Source: Eutypella sp. D-1 (Eukaryota; Ascomycota; Sordariomycetes; Xylariales; Diatrypaceae). Taken from it: a stretch of 64,000 nucleotides of DNA. The position numbers and the translations under genes were made by a program. The stretch lies in the NCBI GenBank assembly GCA_023313575.1, contig JAJTTP010000004.1:2108001-2172000 (forward strand), in the 5' to 3' direction. Numbering within the stretch: position 1 is the first letter of the stretch; each line of letters begins with the position of its first letter. Below, in pieces: positions 34,933 to 48,737 of this stretch. Below the pieces are notes generated by a model that saw only the letters and a list, made by a program, of their open reading frames with translations, was not told where the DNA came from and did not search any database.

Positions 34933-37900
34933 CTACTCCACAGTGCCGAAGAAGCGGCTGGCCTCCTCGAGCTCAGGGTCGCCATTGCAGAAGTCCCAGC
35001 CAACGATGGTACTGGTCTGGGAGCAGCAGATGATGCGCCGGGCGTCGAACTGGAGCTTGAAGATGCGCGCCGGATTTGTCGCGTCCGCCTGCGGCGCGAT
35101 GTGCGGGTGGTGGTGGGGAGGCGGCTGCGTCGGCACCGTGCCTGTGCCCGTGGCTGCCGCCGTGGTGGCCAGTTGAGCTGTGCCGCCCAATGGGAGGTTG
35201 GCGGCGGCGGTGTTAGTTGGAGCTTGGGCTTGTGAGTGCAGTTGTGGCTGCTGAGTATATGACTGAGGCTGTGATGATTGCTGCTGCTGAAAGACGCTGT
35301 TCGATGGGCCGACGCTAGCAAGAGTGTTACCTGCACCACTGCTGCTTCCGGCAGCGGGGGCTACTTGGCGGGACGAGTTCGACCGTGAGCCGGACGCATG
35401 TGCGGCCGAGGAGTATGTGGAGGGCGCTGGCGGTGCGTGAGAGCTAGAGTGTCCGGCAAACGTGTGCGTGCTGGTCCTTCTGGGCGCAATGTCGTTGCCG
35501 CCGTGGGCCGGCGCGGGGAACGTGTTGTGGCGGGTTGAGGATGAGCTACCAGCTTCCGGTGGGTTCGCCGGCGGTTGGTGGGCCGAGCCCATCGCCCGGT
35601 TCTGCGCCATCTGCGTCCGTACCAGGGCGGTGCTGACGACCTGTCGCAGCTGTGACCGCGTAATGGCGTTCGGCTCCCGGTCGATAGCCGATTGTATGTG
35701 CGAGTGATACGTCAGTGTTGCGGGATAGGCCGTCAGCGCCTGTGAAAGGGCAGCCGGGCCCTGGGCTACGACAGTGTCGATCATCTGGATATATGTTGAG
35801 GTTGTTTGGGGTGTGATGGTGGTGTGAGTGGGTTGCTCGACGTGGTTGTAACTCGGAGAATGAGACAGAGCGGGTGGTGCGCTCGCAGGGGGCGCGGGCG
35901 GAGTAAGATTGGACACAGCCCGAGACGATTGAGACAGGGTAACATTATTCGGGTGGGTATTGAGAGGATCCGGTGGGCGGGCGCCTGACGAAGAAGCACT
36001 CCTGGTTGACCGGCGGAGGGCATTAGCAGCCCCCTCTTCCTGTCGAAGGGTGTGGACATTCTTCCAGACGCCATCCCTGTCCCGGCGCCAGATCATGATG
36101 GTTTGGTCGTATGAGCCAGAGACAATCCGTCCAAACGGTCCGCCGCCACCGCCCGGGGGAAGTTTTGCCCCGAAGGCTGTGATGTCCTCTGGCCGACGGC
36201 TCCCGGCATTACGGGGCCGGTCTCGTAGCCTCTCGAACTCCTCAAGGCGACCAGCCTCTTTCGCAGCGAAATAGGCGTCATCGACCTTCTTGGCCTCGAG
36301 GCGATCCTCCTCCTTGCTGTAGGGCAAATCGCCAAAACCGGCCTGGACTGTACGAACAAGGTTGGTGTGGGCCCGCAGGCTGGCAACCTCTAGGCCGGTC
36401 TCTCGATCGAACACCTTAACCTCGTTGTCGCTACTGCCGCTCACGATCCGTCGACCATCATATTGAACACAGGCGATGCCCTTGTTATGGCCCAGGAAAG
36501 TCCTCCTGCATATCTGGTTTGGCCAGTCCCAGACCTTGATGTGCTTATCGCCGCTGGCTGAAACAATCTCCTCGCCGCAAATTTGAACGGCGTTGACTGC
36601 AGCGCCATGTCCCTCGAGGCAGCCGATCATCGTGTAGGGCGGTTTGATAGGCAACTGATCTAATGGCGAACCGTAGCCGTAGTTGTTTAGGTTAATCGGG
36701 ACAGGGCCGACAGCGCTAACATCGCCATACCCGAGATCCCCAGGGCGAAGCGGCAGGCGGTTGAAAATCTTGATACTCTTATCCTTGGAGCAGGTGACGA
36801 GTATCCGCTTGTCAAACTTGACGTTCAAGACAGACTCCCTATGTGCTTTTTGTAGCCGTTGGATAACCTTACCCGTAGAGAACCGCCAGAGGATGACGTC
36901 CGAATCACTGCTTCCAGAAACGATTAAATCCTCCTGCGGGTCGGAATCGAATTGCAGGCAGAGGACGGAGCCGGTGTGCTCTTTGAGGGGTTGACGAACC
37001 AGACGCCGGGTGTGTAAGTTCCAGACCCGGATAGTCTTGTCCCGGCTGCCGCTGACGAGGTATTCGGAGTTGTATTGAAGGCTGTATATACACTCATTAT
37101 GACCCTCCTCTAGGTGGTTCGGATGGGGTAGTTGAAAATTAGTGAACCGGCCACGGTCCCAGTTCGACTCCAACCTCCGGCGCATGGTGTATAGATATTT
37201 CCAACTGATCTTATACCTCTCGTCTCTGGAGTCGTATATCCACAAGGCCGACTTGGGGATCCCCGAGGTGGTCTTAGCTCCATCCATGAAGTTGTTCAGA
37301 TTGGAATGATCGGCAGTGGCCCTACCCTTGCCTTTCACTAATCGAGAGGCTGTACTGCTTACGCGCTCGGGGACAGGAATTGGGCTCGGCGAGCTCATCA
37401 GGAGATCTCCCATAGGTTGGTTCATGCTGCCGTTACTTCTCGTAGATGAGCCGCTCCCTCCACCCTGAGGACCTCCGAATAGGCTCGGACCAGCTTGATC
37501 GTTGTTCGGGTGTTCCTGCTTCGGGAGTTGATCCACATCGACCATATCGAGATCATCATCATCATCATTACTATCGCGCAAGGCGAGATCGGAAACGGCG
37601 CGCTTCTTATGCACATGGCCATAACCGTCATCAACGGATTGCAAGCGTTGGTGATATAGCTCGTAGGAGGCGCCTTCGTTCATGCGCTGTTCGGCGGCGG
37701 AAATCTCGGCGTGTATGGCCTTCCAGCCCTCGAGATAGTATAACTTCTCCCAGAGCTTCCGGTCTATAGAGAGGTCGTACCAGCCGCGACAGCACATAGC
37801 GACGTGTATCAAGGAGACAGGCTCGAGGTAGCCGAATATTTTGAGACATATTTCGGGGGGTAAATACTCGACGAAATTGATGTAGAGACGAGGATTTAGG

Positions 37901-38241
37901 TTGTTCATGACGATGTCGGCGATGACGGTGGTAGGTAATTCGTTGAGAATAAGCATAGCCAGATCTGCGATTTGGGGGAGGAGAGGAGAAGATAGCGGGG
38001 GGAGGGTCAGTAAGCAAAATTCGGAGCAGGCTCGATGATAACTAGGATGGATTAACTCACGGGTCTTCTGTTGTACAGACAGACTTGGCAGCTGAGTGGA
38101 AAGCCAGGCTGGGAGATCACCAGGCGACTGGACGCCAGTCAGGGCTGTCGAGGAGGGGGCATTTCCGGCGGTTCCAGACGGGTAAAGTGGGTGCTCCGAA
38201 TAGCCCTCGTCGGGTTCCTGGATGGCTTTGAATGGCTCCAT
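34933..38241 (-). CDS. fwd-1: F-box/WD40-repeat protein, FWD-1-like SCF substrate receptor, 2 exons
   Basis: The frame is open for 1102 codons, but 37965-38060 is an intron (GTGAGT...CGCAG, 96 nt, divisible by three, no stop). The spliced protein (exons 38061-38241 and 34933-37964) has 1070 residues. An F-box lies at about 93-140 (YLPPEICLKIFGYLEP...RKLWEKL). WD repeats follow with cores SGSRDKTIRVW, SGSSDSDVILW, TCSKDKSIKIF, SASGDKHIKVW, SGSSDNEVKVF and SGSYDQTIMIW. About 300 residues of Ser/Pro/Gln-rich sequence follow, and then a last blade (IFKLQFDARRIICCS...VGWDF) at the C terminus. Family knowledge: Neurospora FWD-1, the Slimb/beta-TrCP counterpart that targets phosphorylated FRQ, has about this size and layout, whereas Met30/SconB and Cdc4 are shorter or arranged differently. 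The family is certain; the FWD-1 assignment is from memory and less so. Confidence 0.8.
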   Translation of the reverse strand: MEPFKAIQEPDEGYSEHPLYPSGTAGNAPSSTALTGVQSPGDLPAWLSTQLPSLSVQQKTRELIHPSYHRACSEFCLLTLPPLSSPLLPQIADLAMLILNELPTTVIADIVMNNLNPRLYINFVEYLPPEICLKIFGYLEPVSLIHVAMCCRGWYDLSIDRKLWEKLYYLEGWKAIHAEISAAEQRMNEGASYELYHQRLQSVDDGYGHVHKKRAVSDLALRDSNDDDDDLDMVDVDQLPKQEHPNNDQAGPSLFGGPQGGGSGSSTRSNGSMNQPMGDLLMSSPSPIPVPERVSSTASRLVKGKGRATADHSNLNNFMDGAKTTSGIPKSALWIYDSRDERYKISWKYLYTMRRRLESNWDRGRFTNFQLPHPNHLEEGHNECIYSLQYNSEYLVSGSRDKTIRVWNLHTRRLVRQPLKEHTGSVLCLQFDSDPQEDLIVSGSSDSDVILWRFSTGKVIQRLQKAHRESVLNVKFDKRILVTCSKDKSIKIFNRLPLRPGDLGYGDVSAVGPVPINLNNYGYGSPLDQLPIKPPYTMIGCLEGHGAAVNAVQICGEEIVSASGDKHIKVWDWPNQICRRTFLGHNKGIACVQYDGRRIVSGSSDNEVKVFDRETGLEVASLRAHTNLVRTVQAGFGDLPYSKEEDRLEAKKVDDAYFAAKEAGRLEEFERLRDRPRNAGSRRPEDITAFGAKLPPGGGGGPFGRIVSGSYDQTIMIWRRDRDGVWKNVHTLRQEEGAANALRRSTRSASSSGARPPDPLNTHPNNVTLSQSSRAVSNLTPPAPPASAPPALSHSPSYNHVEQPTHTTITPQTTSTYIQMIDTVVAQGPAALSQALTAYPATLTYHSHIQSAIDREPNAITRSQLRQVVSTALVRTQMAQNRAMGSAHQPPANPPEAGSSSSTRHNTFPAPAHGGNDIAPRRTSTHTFAGHSSSHAPPAPSTYSSAAHASGSRSNSSRQVAPAAGSSSGAGNTLASVGPSNSVFQQQQSSQPQSYTQQPQLHSQAQAPTNTAAANLPLGGTAQLATTAAATGTGTVPTQPPPHHHPHIAPQADATNPARIFKLQFDARRIICCSQTSTIVGWDFCNGDPELEEASRFFGTVE

Positions 38242-40392
38242 CGCGTCTGACCGACGGATTCGTCTAACGGATTTTTCAACCGATTCGTCGACCGATTCTC
38301 GGTCCGGCTGGCTGGTCTGGTCTGATCGGCTCTAGCCTCGTAGGTACGTTTATAAAAAGAACCAGAAGCAGGAACCAGAAGCGGGAACCAGAAGCGGGAA
38401 CCAGAAGCAGGCTGCCTGGGCAGGACAGAAGAAGAGCTGGACGCGCGAGAGCTGGACAGGCAAGCTAGATAGGCAGGGGAGGAAAAGCAGGCCAGGCGGG
38501 CGGCAAGGCGGCAAGGCGACAAGGCAACAGGGCGAACCAGATCAGATTTCGATCAGATTGGATCTGCGCGAAGCATGTACGGAGAATAAAAATAAAAATA
38601 TTTGTTTATGGTATGGTATGTTTATGATAAGTTCCTTAGGTGGTAAGGTGGTATTATTACTCCAGATGTCTTTTCTTTTTCCGGCCGAGCAATCACAACA
38701 GCGCATTGGCCGGTGAAGAGCGGATGAAGTGGAGATTTCAAGATCTTGGCACAGTCGGTCGCCAATTCAATTCGAGAGAAACCGAATAAAAAGATGGGAA
38801 AAAGAGAGATTTTCTCTAATGTTAGCAGCCTACAGTTACCACCACCACCATTAACCATCAAGTACCTAGGTAGATAGGCATCTAAGCTGCCGTTGCCGTT
38901 GCCGTTAAGGGTAAGTCTAGGTGATGAAAAGACGGGAAGAAGACTGGCTGACCACGGCGGTCGGTTCAGTCGGTCGGCCTCTGAAGAGCTGAAGAGCTGA
39001 CGGTCTGACGGTTGGCCTGGCCTGACTGTCTCTGGTCTGACCGGGCAAGGCAAGGATTCCCGTTTTGATAATAAACTCCGGTCAAATCATCAATCGAATT
39101 GATGCCGTACGTGCAACGACATCGATTAGGGTTTTTTTATGTTATTTTTATTTTTATTTTTTGGGAGAATGTTATTCTCGTATTCTTTTTGATATAGAAA
39201 AGAAACGAGGAGGTGAGATGGAAGAGCAATGGATGCCTAGAGATAACTACCTAGGTAGGTAGAGGAAAGTGTTGGAAAGAGTGCGAACCTTAGTAGTAGT
39301 AGAGATGTTGGTGCTGTCCATTCTGTGTTTTCCAAGGTGGTTCCTAACCACAGAAAAGTGGCGACACATAAGTACTCAGTACATACATCGATGGTTCCAC
39401 TTAGCTGGCTGTACACCTTATCCTCCTTGGAAATATTGTTAACCTTAGGTTACTTGTACAAACCATATTTTGTTATCCGATAGCCATGGTATTACTGGGG
39501 ACCGTTATACGTAACTATGTGTAACTGTACTTGTACGTACATACTTGGCTACCTACATACCTACCTACATACATATATACGTCGAGTATACATATTATGT
39601 AGTAAAAGCGGCGTCGTAGTAGATCGTCAAGACGTTAAAGACGTAAAGACGGGAGGAACGACCACGACGGACAGACGTACAAGACAGACAGACGTGGTGG
39701 TATGTAGTGGTGGTATGTAGTGGTGGTGGTGGTGGCGGCGGGGCCGGATAGGGACGTAGCGCTACATAGCAGCATAATAATTGGGGGCATAACGGGGACA
39801 TAACTGGGACTCATGTGGACGGAGTGGATCAATTGATGGAAGTAGTTGTTGATAAGCTTTTCTAGACGACTCGCAGAACTCGATTTAATCAAGTCAGGTG
39901 AAGTTCCATCGTAAGAGGGGGGCAAGGGGGGCTGAGGGGATACCAAGCAGTCTGACGTTATTATGCGTTACTTCTCTGGCCCCCTTCTCGGGCTTTACTT
40001 GGGTAAAGTGGTAAGTGGTAGTTCTCATTGTATGTAAATACCGGCATCGGCTGTTCCCGGACTCCTCTATGTATTTATTAGCTCCTTAACCTCCCTGCTC
40101 GGCAGAGGCCGCAGAGACGATTGCGTACCGAGCCGGCCGGAGATGCTTATTATTAGTTCCTTAGTCGGTCGACTACCAGCGCCCCAAACTAGGGACATCC
40201 CGTCCTCCAATTTGTTGTCGCTCTCTCCGACGGGCATATAGTTGACACCGGAGACTGAATTTCGCAGATAAGCACGAGTGCAAGCCAAACCATCTACGAT
40301 TTTGCGTAGCAGGTTGTCCTGCGGTGGTTTTCCGACTGAGCGAATCTCGACGAGATATTTAGTCGGAAAAAAAAAGGGACCTGCCCAATGAA
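38242..40392. other. Upstream region of the F-box gene, gene-poor
   Basis: A 13-bp unit (GAACCAGAAGCRG) is repeated four times at 38359-38410, followed by GGCAA-rich runs (38495-38530). Palindromic CTACCTAGGTAG-type sites occur near 38863 and 39247. At 40328-40370 there is a composite hairpin: TTTTCCGACT (40328-40337) pairs with AGTCGGAAAA (40361-40370), and ATCTCGACGAGAT (40346-40358) forms an inner stem. No supported gene. Confidence 0.5.
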
Positions 40393-43680: not shown

Positions 43681-44559
43681 CTAACGATCAAAGATGCCAC
43701 CCCCTCCGTAACTGTTCCCAATGTGGACTGCGGATGTGCCCTTTGCCGCGACAGACTCTGCCTCGTTCCAAATCTGACTAGCTGGACCCGAGCCATGGCT
43801 TAGTGCTGCCTCAGTCCATTCATTCCCGACCCGTACTCGCGCGCTCTCCTCGCCTTGAATGCTCTTAGCATAATTCTTTTCCTTGTACAACATCTCCAAC
43901 CTTCCTGTAACAACCTGAGTCAAATCATTATCCGTGTCTGTAGCGGCATTTTGCAGTGCTACTAGGCTCGGCTCGTCGTTGACTTCTTCGATCTCCATCT
44001 CTACTAGTGTGCGACGAACATTTTCCACGTCATCCACAGGAGCTAGTTTTTCTAAATCATCTACAAACCCCGTAATCTGCCCTATCAACTTGTCGAAGTT
44101 CTTCCCATCGTACAATGCCCACGCTGCCTTCTTAGCAAAGCTAGTTCCCTTTTGCCTCTGGCTGACCACCTTATTAAGACGACTGTGCAATTTTTGGGCA
44201 ACTGGCTTCATGGCCCGGGGTTGGAGGTGCTGGAGGTCCTCTTGCCTCGCGCCGATCGTGTACCGTTTCGATGCTTTCTGTAGGGTCTGGAAGAGCTGCT
44301 CGATTTCTTCCAGGATTGCTTGGATCTTCTGGATAGATTCGTCTTCTGTCTGATAACTAGCAAATCGAGGGTCGTCGTTGATGGCAATAGCCTGACCCCA
44401 TCGGCTCAGGCGAATCTTGGCAACATCGACCTTAAGCTGACATCGTTCGTGAACGCGAGCGAAATGGCGGCCTAATTGGATATACTCGAAACAATTAACG
44501 CAATTATTGAAAAGGGCTGCCACGCTTAGAGCGCTGGCTACAGTACCGAAAGCCTCCAT
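43681..44559 (-). CDS. het-S: HET-S-like HeLo-domain protein with C-terminal amyloid (HRAM) repeats
   Basis: One exon, 292 residues, close to Podospora HET-S (289) and similar to it over its whole length. The HeLo domain spans about 1-225 (LFNNCVNCFEYIQLGR at 16-31, RLSRWGQA at 50-57, WALYDGK at 147-153). The tail has two amyloid pseudo-repeats: R1 about 238-257 (SARVRVGNEW) and R2 about 273-292 (SAVHIGNSYGG then IFD). Asn246 and Asn282 are 36 residues apart, the spacing of the asparagine ladder in the HET-s beta-solenoid. Residue 32 is His, matching position 33 where His marks HET-S (pore-forming) and Pro marks HET-s (prion). Family knowledge: the tail folds on an amyloid template, HeLo refolds, inserts into membrane and kills the cell. 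It is divergent from the NLR at 44844, whose N terminus carries the matching motif. Confidence 0.93.
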   Translation of the reverse strand: MEAFGTVASALSVAALFNNCVNCFEYIQLGRHFARVHERCQLKVDVAKIRLSRWGQAIAINDDPRFASYQTEDESIQKIQAILEEIEQLFQTLQKASKRYTIGARQEDLQHLQPRAMKPVAQKLHSRLNKVVSQRQKGTSFAKKAAWALYDGKNFDKLIGQITGFVDDLEKLAPVDDVENVRRTLVEMEIEEVNDEPSLVALQNAATDTDNDLTQVVTGRLEMLYKEKNYAKSIQGEESARVRVGNEWTEAALSHGSGPASQIWNEAESVAAKGTSAVHIGNSYGGGGIFDR

Positions 44560-44843
44560 GATGATTCTGAGGCATTACCTATCGAGATGCTGTTGCGTTT
44601 AGTTTGTCAGATTATACTGTGAATACCTACCTAGGTAGGTAAGGCCCTTGGAGATATCTATCTTAAAATGAGGGGCTGGTGTGGCCGAGAAAAGGAGACC
44701 TCTGAGTGGCAGGCTTATTGAGTGAGGCCGGGGAGGGGGTTAGGTTGCATTTACATAGTAATCCAAATTTGCTTCCTCTAAATGCCCGTAGCACTTTCTT
44801 GTTATCTACATTGACAAAATACCGACAGCCTAACGACTATACG
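44560..44843. promoter_or_regulatory. Shared divergent promoter of the HET-S-like and NLR genes
   Basis: Only 284 bases separate the two start codons, so the pair must share its control region. It contains a perfect 16-bp palindrome ACCTACCTAGGTAGGT at 44625-44640, a word that also occurs at several other promoters in the window. No TATA-type element can be assigned with confidence. Confidence 0.6.
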
Positions 44844-46803
44844 ATGGCGACAACGAATTCCGCCGGGACTGTGGAAGCTTCTGGATCCAGCAGGATTCAT
44901 TTTGGAAATCATTACAACTACAGTGCGATAATCACCAGCAGTCCATCTACCCATGCGCCCAGGATCCTTGTGTGACCTTGCTAATCTTGTGGTCACAGTT
45001 ACCGAACGACCAGCAACACCGGTAAAACCAATGAACACTATCCCTTTCTGCCGCGATGTTGATTTTATCGAACGCAAGACCCTTCTCGATCGGATCCGTC
45101 AAACATGCTCAGCACCAGCCTCGCGCGCAGCCCTCGTCGGGCTGGGAGGGCTAGGCAAATCACAACTTGCTATCGAACATGCGTATAGAGTGCAAGATGA
45201 GTGTATGCAACAAAATAAAGACGCCTGGACATTCTGGGTCCATGCCGGGACGCGAGCACGCGTTGAAAAAGACTTTCAAGCAATCGCAGACGCCGTCAGG
45301 ATCCCAGGCCGAAACCAGCCTCAGGCAGACATTCTGCAACTTGTCTACCAATGGCTACGAAATGAACGGAATGGCCAGTGGTTAATGATCTTGGATAGTG
45401 CCGACGACATCAACGTGTTCTACCGCACCGATGAAAAAGCAAAAAAGACGACTGACGAAGCAGAGAAGAGCCCCCTATGGACATATCTACCGCAGAGCCC
45501 GAACGGCAGAATTCTCGTGACGACCAGAGACAGGAATCTTGCCTCGCGACTCACAGGTAGCCATACAGACATTATTGAGGTCGGACCCATGAACCGAGAC
45601 CACGCTCTTGCACTTCTTATGAAGAAATTAGGAGGACCGCCGGACATGGACGCTGCAACCGAGCTTGTAGAGGCGCTCGAGTACATGCCTTTGGCTATCA
45701 GTCAAGCAGCAGCCTATATACAACGAGGACGACCTCGTCGCTCAATTTCGAAGTATCTGGAAGAATTTCGAATCGAACGAAAGAGATGGAGCCTTTTGAA
45801 CTACGATAATGGAGATCTCCGGCGAGATGGAAGCGCGTCGAATTCAGTGATGACGACATGGCAGATCTCGTTTGAATACATACGCCGAAAAAGACCATCG
45901 GCAACTGAGTTGCTATCACGTATGAGCTTCTTCGATCGGCAAGGGATTCCAGAGTCTTTAGTTCGGCATATCGATCAGAATGAGATTGGTACCCGCGAAG
46001 CAAATATGCACTATGAAAGCTTAAGCTCTTGCGAGGATGATGGTATATTTGAAGAGGACGTAATCACCCTTAGAGACTATTGCTTGATTCATATGAATGA
46101 AGAAGGTAATAGCTTTGACATGCATGGGCTAGTCCAATTCTGTACTAGGAAATGGTTGGATGATCACGAAGAAACCGAGAAGTTCAAGAAACAGTATATC
46201 AGTCGGATGGCTCGGGCATTTCCAAGAGGGGATTTCCTGGACTGGGAGGCTTGTCAGAAGCTCTTCCCACATGTTGAAAAAGCCATCAAGTATCGTCCAG
46301 TCGACGAGAAGTCACTGAAAGAATGGGCTCTGCTTTTGGACAATGGCGGTTGGTATTCCCTAGAACAAGGTAGATATGCCACGGCGGAAATAATGGCAAG
46401 GAAATCGTGGGAAACAAATATTACAATACTAGGAGCAGAAGATCCCTCGACGCTAAGAAGCATGTCTAACCTGGCTTCGACGTTTTGGAAACAGGGACGG
46501 TTGGAAGAGGCCAAGCAGCTGGGGGTGCAAGTGATGGAGACGCGCAAAATGAAACTTGGGGTGGATCATCCTGGCACATTGGATAGCATGGCTAATCTGG
46601 CATATTACTGGAAATCCCGAGGCCGTGTTCCTGATGGTATCAAGTTGATGGAACAATCTGTCCAGGGGCGTATCCGAGTTCTAGGAGCTGAACATCCGGA
46701 TACTACATCGTCACTCTCTGCATTGCATGATTGGCAGGCGGAAGAGCAGGACTGTCTGCAACGGCCTGGCGGCTCCGAGGATGCTCTTTCTCGCTCGCCG
46801 TGA
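44844..46803 (+). CDS. NB-ARC/TPR NLR with N-terminal HRAM amyloid motif, 2 exons
   Basis: Exons 44844-44922 and 44999-46803 give 627 residues. The intron (GTGCGA...GCTAATC...CACAG, 76 nt) is the frame-compatible choice with the better donor; a 58-nt variant starting at 44941 is also in frame. Residues 14-26 (GSSRIHFGNHYNY) match the R1 and R2 repeats of the neighbouring HET-S-like protein. NB-ARC follows: P-loop GLGGLGKS (74-81), Walker B LMILD (155-159), a GRILVTTRD block, YMPLAISQAA, and an MHG block in the MHD position. About two and a half TPR-type repeats end the protein (DPSTLRSMSNLAS, HPGTLDSMANLAY, HPDTTSSLSAL). Family knowledge: ligand-driven oligomerisation of such receptors exposes N-terminal motifs that seed the partner's amyloid fold. 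Ligand unknown. Confidence 0.88.
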
Positions 46804-47538: not shown

Positions 47539-48737
47539 CTAGAGACCCAATTCCCTCGCAAGGTCATCCCATCTGCCCGAACGCAGAGGGTCCAGCGTGC
47601 GTAGCTCCGTCAACCAAGCCCGCAGGTCGTGAGCATCGCCGTCGTCATATCCTTCACGCTGATCTAGTTGCTTTAGCGCTGTCGTGTACTCCAGGAGGGA
47701 CAGGTAGATCCACTTCATGTCGGGGAAGTCCACTAGTAGGTCCTTGATCTCGCCGATCTCGTGCCGAAGGTAGGCTGCCCTCTGGTCTGCGGTCAGGGCT
47801 GGCGCGAGCCGTGGGGCTGGACCCGGGCTGCGCGAGTCGCCGCCATCATGGCCAACGATGAGCTGCGAGACCAAGAACCGGTGGTAGAACCAAAGGCCCT
47901 GGTCCCAGGGCCCTGTGTCCAGGCAGCCACGAATAAAGGCGAGCTCCTCGGCGAGCATGGTGGCGCGGGCCGCGTCGTCGGCATCCCGCTCATCGAGGAC
48001 TCTAGGGACGAGAACGCTACGGGCGTGCCAGGCAGAGAAATTGGAGAAGTTATTCATAATCATGCGCTTCGTGTATGCGAGCTCTTCCTCGGCCATGCTC
48101 CGCCCCCCCAGCGAGGGGCCCTCCAGCTCCGCCACCACGGCGCGCCGGTAGCCCCAGCCATGGAAATTTCGCTGGTCCTTGCTGAGCATCTTGGATGCCA
48201 GTCCGAGCTCCGCCTCCCACACCGCGCGGGCGGTCGGCACAGCCCGCCGGAGGAACGCCGCCAGCACCCAGCGTCGGTAGTTCCAGATCCAGTAGCACTT
48301 GGGGAATCTGGTCAGGAGGGGAACGGTGAAAGCTAGCTCTGCCTGCAGGATATCGTCGTCGGCTGACGACCGTCCTCCCTGGGCATCTGCAGTATCCGGA
48401 CTCCCGGATAGCATACCCGAGACCAGGCAGCGTCGGCGAACATTCCATATCGTGTAGTATTCGGGGTTGAGGCGGAGAAGCTGAGTGGTAAGCTGGAAGA
48501 GTGCGAGGTCGGGTGCGTTGCCCGATACCGTGTGCGCCCGTATCTGATTCTCGAGTTCGCGATATGCCCGGATCTTTTCGATATCTTGCCGTTTCTGCTC
48601 CCCGGTGCGCCCCCGGACGCCGGCACGGGCTACCCCATGCTACAATACTTTAGCTCAGTCGGCTGTTCTCACTACTGCGGGCTAGCTAGCTTGTTTAGCT
48701 GGTTGGAGCGGTGGTGGGAATTGCCTACACTTGCCAT
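47539..48737 (-). CDS. bet4: Rab geranylgeranyltransferase alpha subunit (Bet4), 2 exons with a 9-nt first exon
   Basis: Exon 2 (48639-47539) is open for 366 codons and begins HGVARAGVRGRTGEQKRQ without a Met. A 9-nt first exon (48737-48729, ATG GCA AGT) joined by an 89-nt intron (GTAGGC...TTGTAG) supplies M-A-S in phase, giving MASHGVAR, the start expected for this family. Total 369 residues. PPTA repeats are visible: NPEYYTIWNVRR, FPKCYWIWNYRRW, RNFHGWGYRR and NFSNFSAWHAR. The DMKWIYLSLLEY block lies near the C terminus. Family knowledge: with Bet2 it forms Rab GGTase II, which adds geranylgeranyl groups to Rab GTPases bound to Mrs6/REP. Confidence 0.9.

Follow-up and report, generated by a model that had tools for sequence, protein, structure and literature searches.

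Amyloid signalling pairs described in fungi

Two-gene amyloid pairs, in which a nucleotide-binding oligomerisation domain-like receptor (NLR) and an effector carry a common motif, have been described since 2012, and the two-gene layout, a motif family with five classes and amyloid-motif receptors built of NB-ARC and tetratricopeptide repeats (TPRs) are all in print (PMC3321046, PMC4518210, PMC9815663, PMC12258605, PMC7885112). An NLR adjoins 98 of 155 such effectors (PMC4518210), fungal NLR architectures arise from combined building blocks (PMC5485727, PMC3321046), and the three amyloid pathways of Podospora do not cross-seed one another (PMC7885112). Here we describe a HET-S-like effector gene and an NLR gene lying divergently in a 64,000-nucleotide stretch of the Eutypella sp. 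D-1 genome (contig JAJTTP010000004.1, positions 2,108,001 to 2,172,000 of the forward strand, assembly GCA_023313575.1), referred to as the window, in whose own numbering positions are given.

The window pair resembles HET-S/NWD2 of Podospora anserina (PMC3321046, PMC4344463) in its HeLo effector, which has two HET-s repeats and a histidine at the main switch position, and in the divergent, adjoining NLR with a single motif copy (r0) at its extreme N-terminus, but NWD2 combines NACHT with WD40 repeats whereas the window receptor combines DUF7779 with TPRs. PNT1/HELLP (P. anserina, Chaetomium globosum; PMC7885112) shares the NB-ARC-TPR receptor architecture; the motif of PNT1 lies on a short first exon that ends at a phase-1 intron, an arrangement only predicted for the window NLR, yet PNT1 carries the PP motif and has the HeLo-like HELLP as its partner, whereas the window NLR carries a HET-s motif and is partnered by HET-S. 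In FNT1/HELLF (P. anserina; PMC7885112) the receptor is likewise NB-ARC-TPR and its R0 is HET-s-related, but the prion of HELLF, a HeLo-like protein, does not cross-seed with that of HET-s, whereas the window partner is a HET-S protein scoring above the PF11558 cut-off. PNT1 and FNT1 are likened to the window NLR by their published descriptions. With FNT1, the combination of this receptor type and this motif superfamily is already in print. An initial annotation of the window had likened the locus to HET-S/NWD2, which holds for the two-gene divergent HeLo/NLR layout but does not extend to the receptor, NB-ARC-TPR instead of NWD2-like; its remark that the class is known agrees with the published layout (PMC3321046, PMC4518210, PMC4344463). 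The pair adds a new instance to a class that is already known, and it is the motif exon of its receptor that merits attention.

A HET-S homologue and a divergent NB-ARC-TPR receptor

The effector gene (43681..44559, minus strand) is a single open frame of 292 aa plus stop codon. Its HeLo domain (residues ~1-222; 43894..44559, minus strand) matches PF14479 with an E-value of 4.5e-53 in the Pfam scan, the HET-s prion-domain model PF11558 scores 75 bits (E 4.5e-21) against a cut-off of 32.2, and the PDB chains 2wvo/2wvn match with E about 1e-72, the HeLo part sharing 52-54% identity with the 2wvo/2wvn/2wvq chains. Two amyloid repeats follow on the same strand, r1 (residues 229-249; 43813..43875) with AlphaFold2 strands at 229-236 and 241-244, and r2 (residues 265-285; 43705..43767) with strands at 265-272 and 277-280. 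By these matches the gene is clearly a HET-S homologue with a HeLo domain and a two-repeat HET-s prion-forming region. Among the best 120 of 268 hits, full-length homologues are at most 75% identical, the best named ones coming from Monosporascus and Xylaria, and an unnamed 164-aa fragment covers 52% of the query at 97% identity. Effector H32 and E85 align with HET-S H33 and E86, the residues at which H33P and E86K convert HET-S to a HET-s-like protein (PMC3531502). At the second switch position, residue 22 of the effector, there is an N, where HET-S has A and HET-s has D. PMC4518210 names three inter-repeat salt-bridge positions, two of which carry opposite charges in the effector in a numbering matched by us.

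The receptor gene lies on the plus strand with its ATG at 44844, leaving 284 bp between the two start codons (44560..44843, calculated from both ATGs). Exon 1 (44844..44922) comprises 79 nt, or 26 codons and one further nucleotide to its predicted end, and holds little besides the amyloid motif r0 (residues 5-25; 44856..44918). It is probably closed by a 76-bp phase-1 intron (44923..44998; GTGCGA...CAG, with a branch-like GCTAAT 19 nt before its end), which we predicted from the DNA by choosing on splice signals among 18 frame-compatible options. Exon 2 (44999..46803, 1805 nt) encodes the nucleotide-binding domain, DUF7779 and ~3.5 TPRs, and the two exons together predict a 627-aa NLR. Pfam matches in exon 2 include NACHT (6.2e-7), NB-ARC (9.1e-7), DUF7779 (1.6e-7) and TPR_10 (1e-26, three stretches); Pfam leaves the nucleotide-binding part undecided between NACHT and NB-ARC, and no WD40 is among the 11 families reported for this exon. 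The predicted model of the exon 2 region contains helices, and the top Foldseek match of the NLR model is Apaf-1 (3sfz, E 8.3e-11). P. anserina PNT1 has one intron at open-reading-frame positions 95-148 (PMC7885112), from which its first exon is calculated at 94 nt, phase 1, compared with the 79 nt predicted here. The start MAT(T/A)NS is common to six of the seven other clear HET-s-type NLRs (classes defined below); the public models P0053 and P0243 have 22 and 23 additional residues at the motif/receptor junction, which look like unspliced introns in the gene models.

Both genes carry copies of one amyloid motif

One 21-residue motif occurs three times in the pair, as r0 in the NLR and as r1 and r2 in the effector, with 10/21 identities between r0 and r2 and 6/21 in each of the pairs r0-r1 and r1-r2. 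Three motif peptides noted in the initial annotation were found in the sequence at the places given there, and its divergent genes 284 bp apart are borne out by the start codons flanking 44560-44843. Its shared motif stands, with an earlier start than was proposed (NLR 5-25, effector 229-249 and 265-285); the effector does not end at the quoted peptide, which is followed by IFDR, and the NLR, there read as one frame, is better explained by two exons with the predicted 76-bp intron. The profile check suggested for the NLR N terminus returned a PF11558 match of 24.0 bits (E 3.9e-5), below the cut-off of 32.2, and PF17108 matched with E 1.6e-4, also below its cut-off; both were scored on the open frame 44844-44972, with the matched residues 2-25 inside exon 1. 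PF17046 was not reported on exon 1 at E up to 1.

Across the 48.5 Mb genome at E up to 10, PF11558 gave two matches only, the effector and NLR exon 1. This model finds 38 of 155 two-repeat proteins and misses many HET-s-related motifs (PMC4518210), so other pairs with HET-s-related amyloid motifs could sit unseen in the genome. A genome search with PF17108 returned four weak matches, none above the cut-off, and two of the four fell on the window pair. A DNA motif pattern was uninformative genome-wide (270 forward and 295 reverse matches, compared with 313 and 298 when the pattern was reversed). Profiles of r1 and r2 were built, with the window excluded, from 38 effectors picked by hand out of the 120 homologues listed, and run against the 1850 six-frame open reading frames (ORFs) of the window: with the r2 profile NLR exon 1 scored 25.4 bits, second of the 1850 behind the effector itself, vs 3.5 for the best unrelated ORF, and with the r1 profile it scored 12.3 bits vs 4.6. 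The r0-r2 score was reached by 0 of 100000 shuffles of r0. Over six pairs the mean r0 score was 41.4 against r2 and 33.7 against r1, and a closer relationship of r0 to r2 than to r1 is published for HRAM1 too; within the six pairs r0 showed no preference for its own partner's r2 over those of others (p 0.26). The NWD2 r0 mutants H9P, R15P, V16P, V18P and G19A lose activity (PMC4344463), and in our numbering the equivalent residues of the window r0 are E, R, I, F and G. Of these the F, at a core position, is unusual, the other clear HET-s-type NLRs having V (6/7) or I (1/7).

Judged by its homologues, its shared motif, its gene order and the folds predicted for it, the pair is very probably a two-gene amyloid NLR signalosome, and sequence, predicted fold and gene order agree with the proposal that an NLR bearing the motif and a HET-S-type effector act as an amyloid signalling pair. 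The steps of triggering, oligomerisation, templating and killing are carried over from the Podospora literature. By this analogy, the NLR would be held inactive until its TPR domain senses a trigger, whereupon it would oligomerise via the nucleotide-binding domain and gather the N-terminal r0 motifs. The gathered motifs could then stack as a HET-s-type beta-solenoid and template conversion of the r1-r2 region of the adjoining HET-S-like protein, whose HeLo domain would refold, insert into the membrane and kill the cell.

HET-s-type receptors lie within a family that mostly carries PP

NB-ARC and TPR annotations dominate the public relatives of the window NLR, and most of those with a readable N-terminus carry the PP motif (best 120 of 1823 hits). 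Regular expressions, with the PP pattern taken from PMC3321046, classed the 120 listed NLRs as PP (66), HET-s type (6) or neither (48); on hand reading, 10 of the latter were assigned to PP and two to a doubtful HET-s type, and 36, many of them truncated, were left unreadable. With the window NLR, its paralogue on contig C6 of the same genome (see below) and P0243, which entered the sample through its motif, the resulting 123 rows comprise 77 PP, eight HET-s-type, two doubtful and 36 unknown receptors. In a Pfam scan of nine of these proteins, PF17046 (named Ses_B, and used as the PP model on the positions of its matches) matched 4/4 PP-type proteins, in P0085 below the cut-off, and PF17108 and/or PF11558 matched 4/4 clear HET-s-type proteins, weakly (E 7e-4 to 0.05, below cut-offs). 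None was matched by both model classes among the families shown (25 of 27, 28 and 32 for P0006, P0082 and P0013), and the doubtful P0029 was matched by neither. The receptor belongs with NB-ARC-TPR receptors that mostly carry PP, and is not NWD2-like.

A tree of the 123 rows places all HET-s-type receptors (8 clear, 2 doubtful) in one 25-row group (support 94, not starred), which also holds 10 PP-type and five unreadable rows; among the 98 rows outside it, none is of HET-s type, 67 are PP and 31 are unreadable. The named members of this group belong to Xylariales genera, except P0021 (Diaporthe), which drops out of the group in a careful 35-row tree; relatives of the effector and of the receptor alike suggest an origin in the Xylariales. 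In the latter tree the HET-s-type P0013 (Xylaria flabelliformis) and the PP-type P0082 (Xylaria cf. heliscus) are sisters with 100/100 support, and the placement of P0067 among HET-s-type rows is supported by 89/88. An approximately unbiased (AU) test rejects the eight clear HET-s-type rows as one group against 19 PP rows (p-AU 8.5e-13), and the rejection stands when P0013 and P0082 are left out (p 0.0021) and when P0067 is (p 8.6e-5); these tests were picked after the first tree was seen and rest on public gene models. Counting the doubtful rows as HET-s type, the tree requires three changes of motif class, or two if either exception is dropped.

The motif class of a receptor is associated with HET-S on its contig. 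Among the best-scoring hits listed (120 of 1823 for NLRs, 120 of 268 for effectors), five of the seven clear HET-s-type public receptors share a contig with a HET-S homologue, as do 0/2 doubtful, 0/76 PP-type and 1/36 unknown receptors. A shared contig was taken from contigs of equal size in the same named species (for P0099, of unknown class, from size alone), and the PP-type P0075, which has no contig, is outside the 76. Fisher tests, treating related species as independent, give p 7e-7 for 5/7 vs 0/76 PP and p 0.0034 for 5/7 vs 0/10 PP rows of the 25-row group, the latter becoming 0.0048 without P0021 (Diaporthe) and 0.011 without P0243 too. In six pairs, that of the window and five public ones, receptor and effector identities covary (Mantel r 0.957, p 0.0028).

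Two side observations concern individual relatives. P0029 and P0045 (Xylaria) are sister receptors with decayed-looking HET-s-type N-termini, no listed HET-S homologue was placed on their contig (best 120 of 268 effector hits), and a loss of HET-S wiring is possible from these sequences. In the gene model of the HET-S homologue P0127 (Xylariaceae sp. AK1471), residues 1-54 form an N-terminal extension that resembles the motif/NB-ARC junction of the NLR P0053; the likeness suggests that part of an NLR gene lies upstream in the same orientation.

Exchange of the motif exon and alternative explanations

We consider it evenly poised whether the PP-motif exon of a PP-family NB-ARC-TPR receptor was replaced by a HET-s-motif exon, an event which would have re-wired the receptor to HET-S. 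The broader proposal, to which we give equal weight for and against, is that the motif of PNT1-like NLRs is an exchangeable phase-1 exon cassette that switches between PP and HET-s while the sensor is kept, with at least two exchanges in a mostly Xylariales group and with motif identity predicting HET-S on the same contig. As the assembly of fungal NLRs from building blocks is in print, motif exchange is less novel; no report of PP/HET-s motif or exon exchange in fungal NLRs was found in the open-licence literature, which is weak evidence of absence. Because the Podospora amyloid pathways do not cross-seed, exchange of the motif exon would shift a receptor between death pathways in one step, and, if true, would represent a testable route to parallel amyloid channels.

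The alternative that survives best, though we think it rather unlikely, is that there was no exchange onto a PP receptor, the group having always been HET-s or FNT1-like in origin and its PP members having gained PP. The change counts on the tree cannot separate gain from loss, and P. anserina FNT1, likened to the window NLR by description, combines the NB-ARC-TPR architecture with an R0 related to HET-s (PMC7885112), both of which favour such an origin, but HET-s-type motifs are absent from the 98 rows outside the 25-row group, of which 67 are PP and 31 unreadable, and motif exchanges would still be needed, as the grouping of the clear HET-s-type rows is rejected.

Exon exchange apart, there is a small chance that the HET-S protein serves in allorecognition (heterokaryon incompatibility), its role in Podospora, and is not a receptor-triggered immune executioner. 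The effector is a close HET-S homologue, as this would have it; a histidine at the main HET-S/HET-s switch position and an adjoining receptor with a matching motif speak against it, although a prion-type allele may exist beyond the one genome compared. Slightly less probable again is a relic, in which both genes are readable and the receptor no longer signals, for example through the F found at a core position of r0 instead of the V or I of other HET-s-type NLRs, or through a short TPR array, the window NLR having three TPR_10 stretches vs 4-10 repeats in natural pnt1 alleles (PMC7885112). Against this, the two reading frames stay open from end to end, the PP-type relatives P0085 (617 aa) and P0092 (626 aa) are equally short, and nwd2 alleles reach down to two repeats (PMC7885112). 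A chance likeness between the two genes, which the shortness of the motif and the below-cut-off NLR match might suggest, has a negligible probability and is contradicted by the profile and shuffle results, by both genome-wide PF11558 matches falling in these adjacent genes and by the recurrence of the motif at residues 5-25 of seven other NLRs.

A PP-wired pair and other loci in the same genome

A second divergent pair is present at G000:C6, about 435.9-439.6 kb, where a HeLo-like gene (L032:1937-2842, minus strand) lies next to an NLR (L032:3246-5641, plus strand). As in the window pair, a divergent HeLo-like gene adjoins an NB-ARC-TPR NLR (45% identical to the window NLR over query 3-529) with the motif on its own exon, but here the shared motif is PP-like (PF17046) instead of HET-s. 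The PP motif lies on a separate first exon, predicted at 97 nt. Of the 10 splice options listed, the four with a GTTAGT donor give a phase-1 intron, and a motif exon ending in this way is the likeliest reading of the sequence. The HeLo-like gene matches PF17111 (E 9.4e-17; PigL_N in the Pfam copy used), a family termed HeLo-like in PMC9815663, and PF17046 scores 22.7 bits on the NLR and 14.9 bits (E 0.026) at the C-terminal end of the effector, with a cut-off of 23.2. The frame of the HeLo-like gene carries one stop, which may sit in an unspliced intron. The genome thereby offers a built-in comparison of paralogous receptors, one HET-s-wired and one PP-wired.

Searching the genome for the HeLo domain gave a list of 10 places. 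Two motif regular expressions applied to 15 loci with ~1.5 kb flanks (the HeLo loci L012-L019 and the NLR loci L026-L031 and L032) gave, beyond the C6 pair, matches at L013 and L027 only, the latter inside an NLR-like frame, and both were judged to be chance. At L019 and L020 (G000:C1:3708204-3708744) a HeLo stretch is present in two pieces with one in-frame stop each, reflecting either introns or a decayed gene.

Within the window, the next ORF of at least 230 aa past the NLR (47539-48639, minus strand) resembles a protein prenyltransferase alpha-subunit (PF01239, E 9.9e-38), and a 1132-aa open frame at 34933-38331 (minus strand) has F-box-like and WD40-repeat matches.
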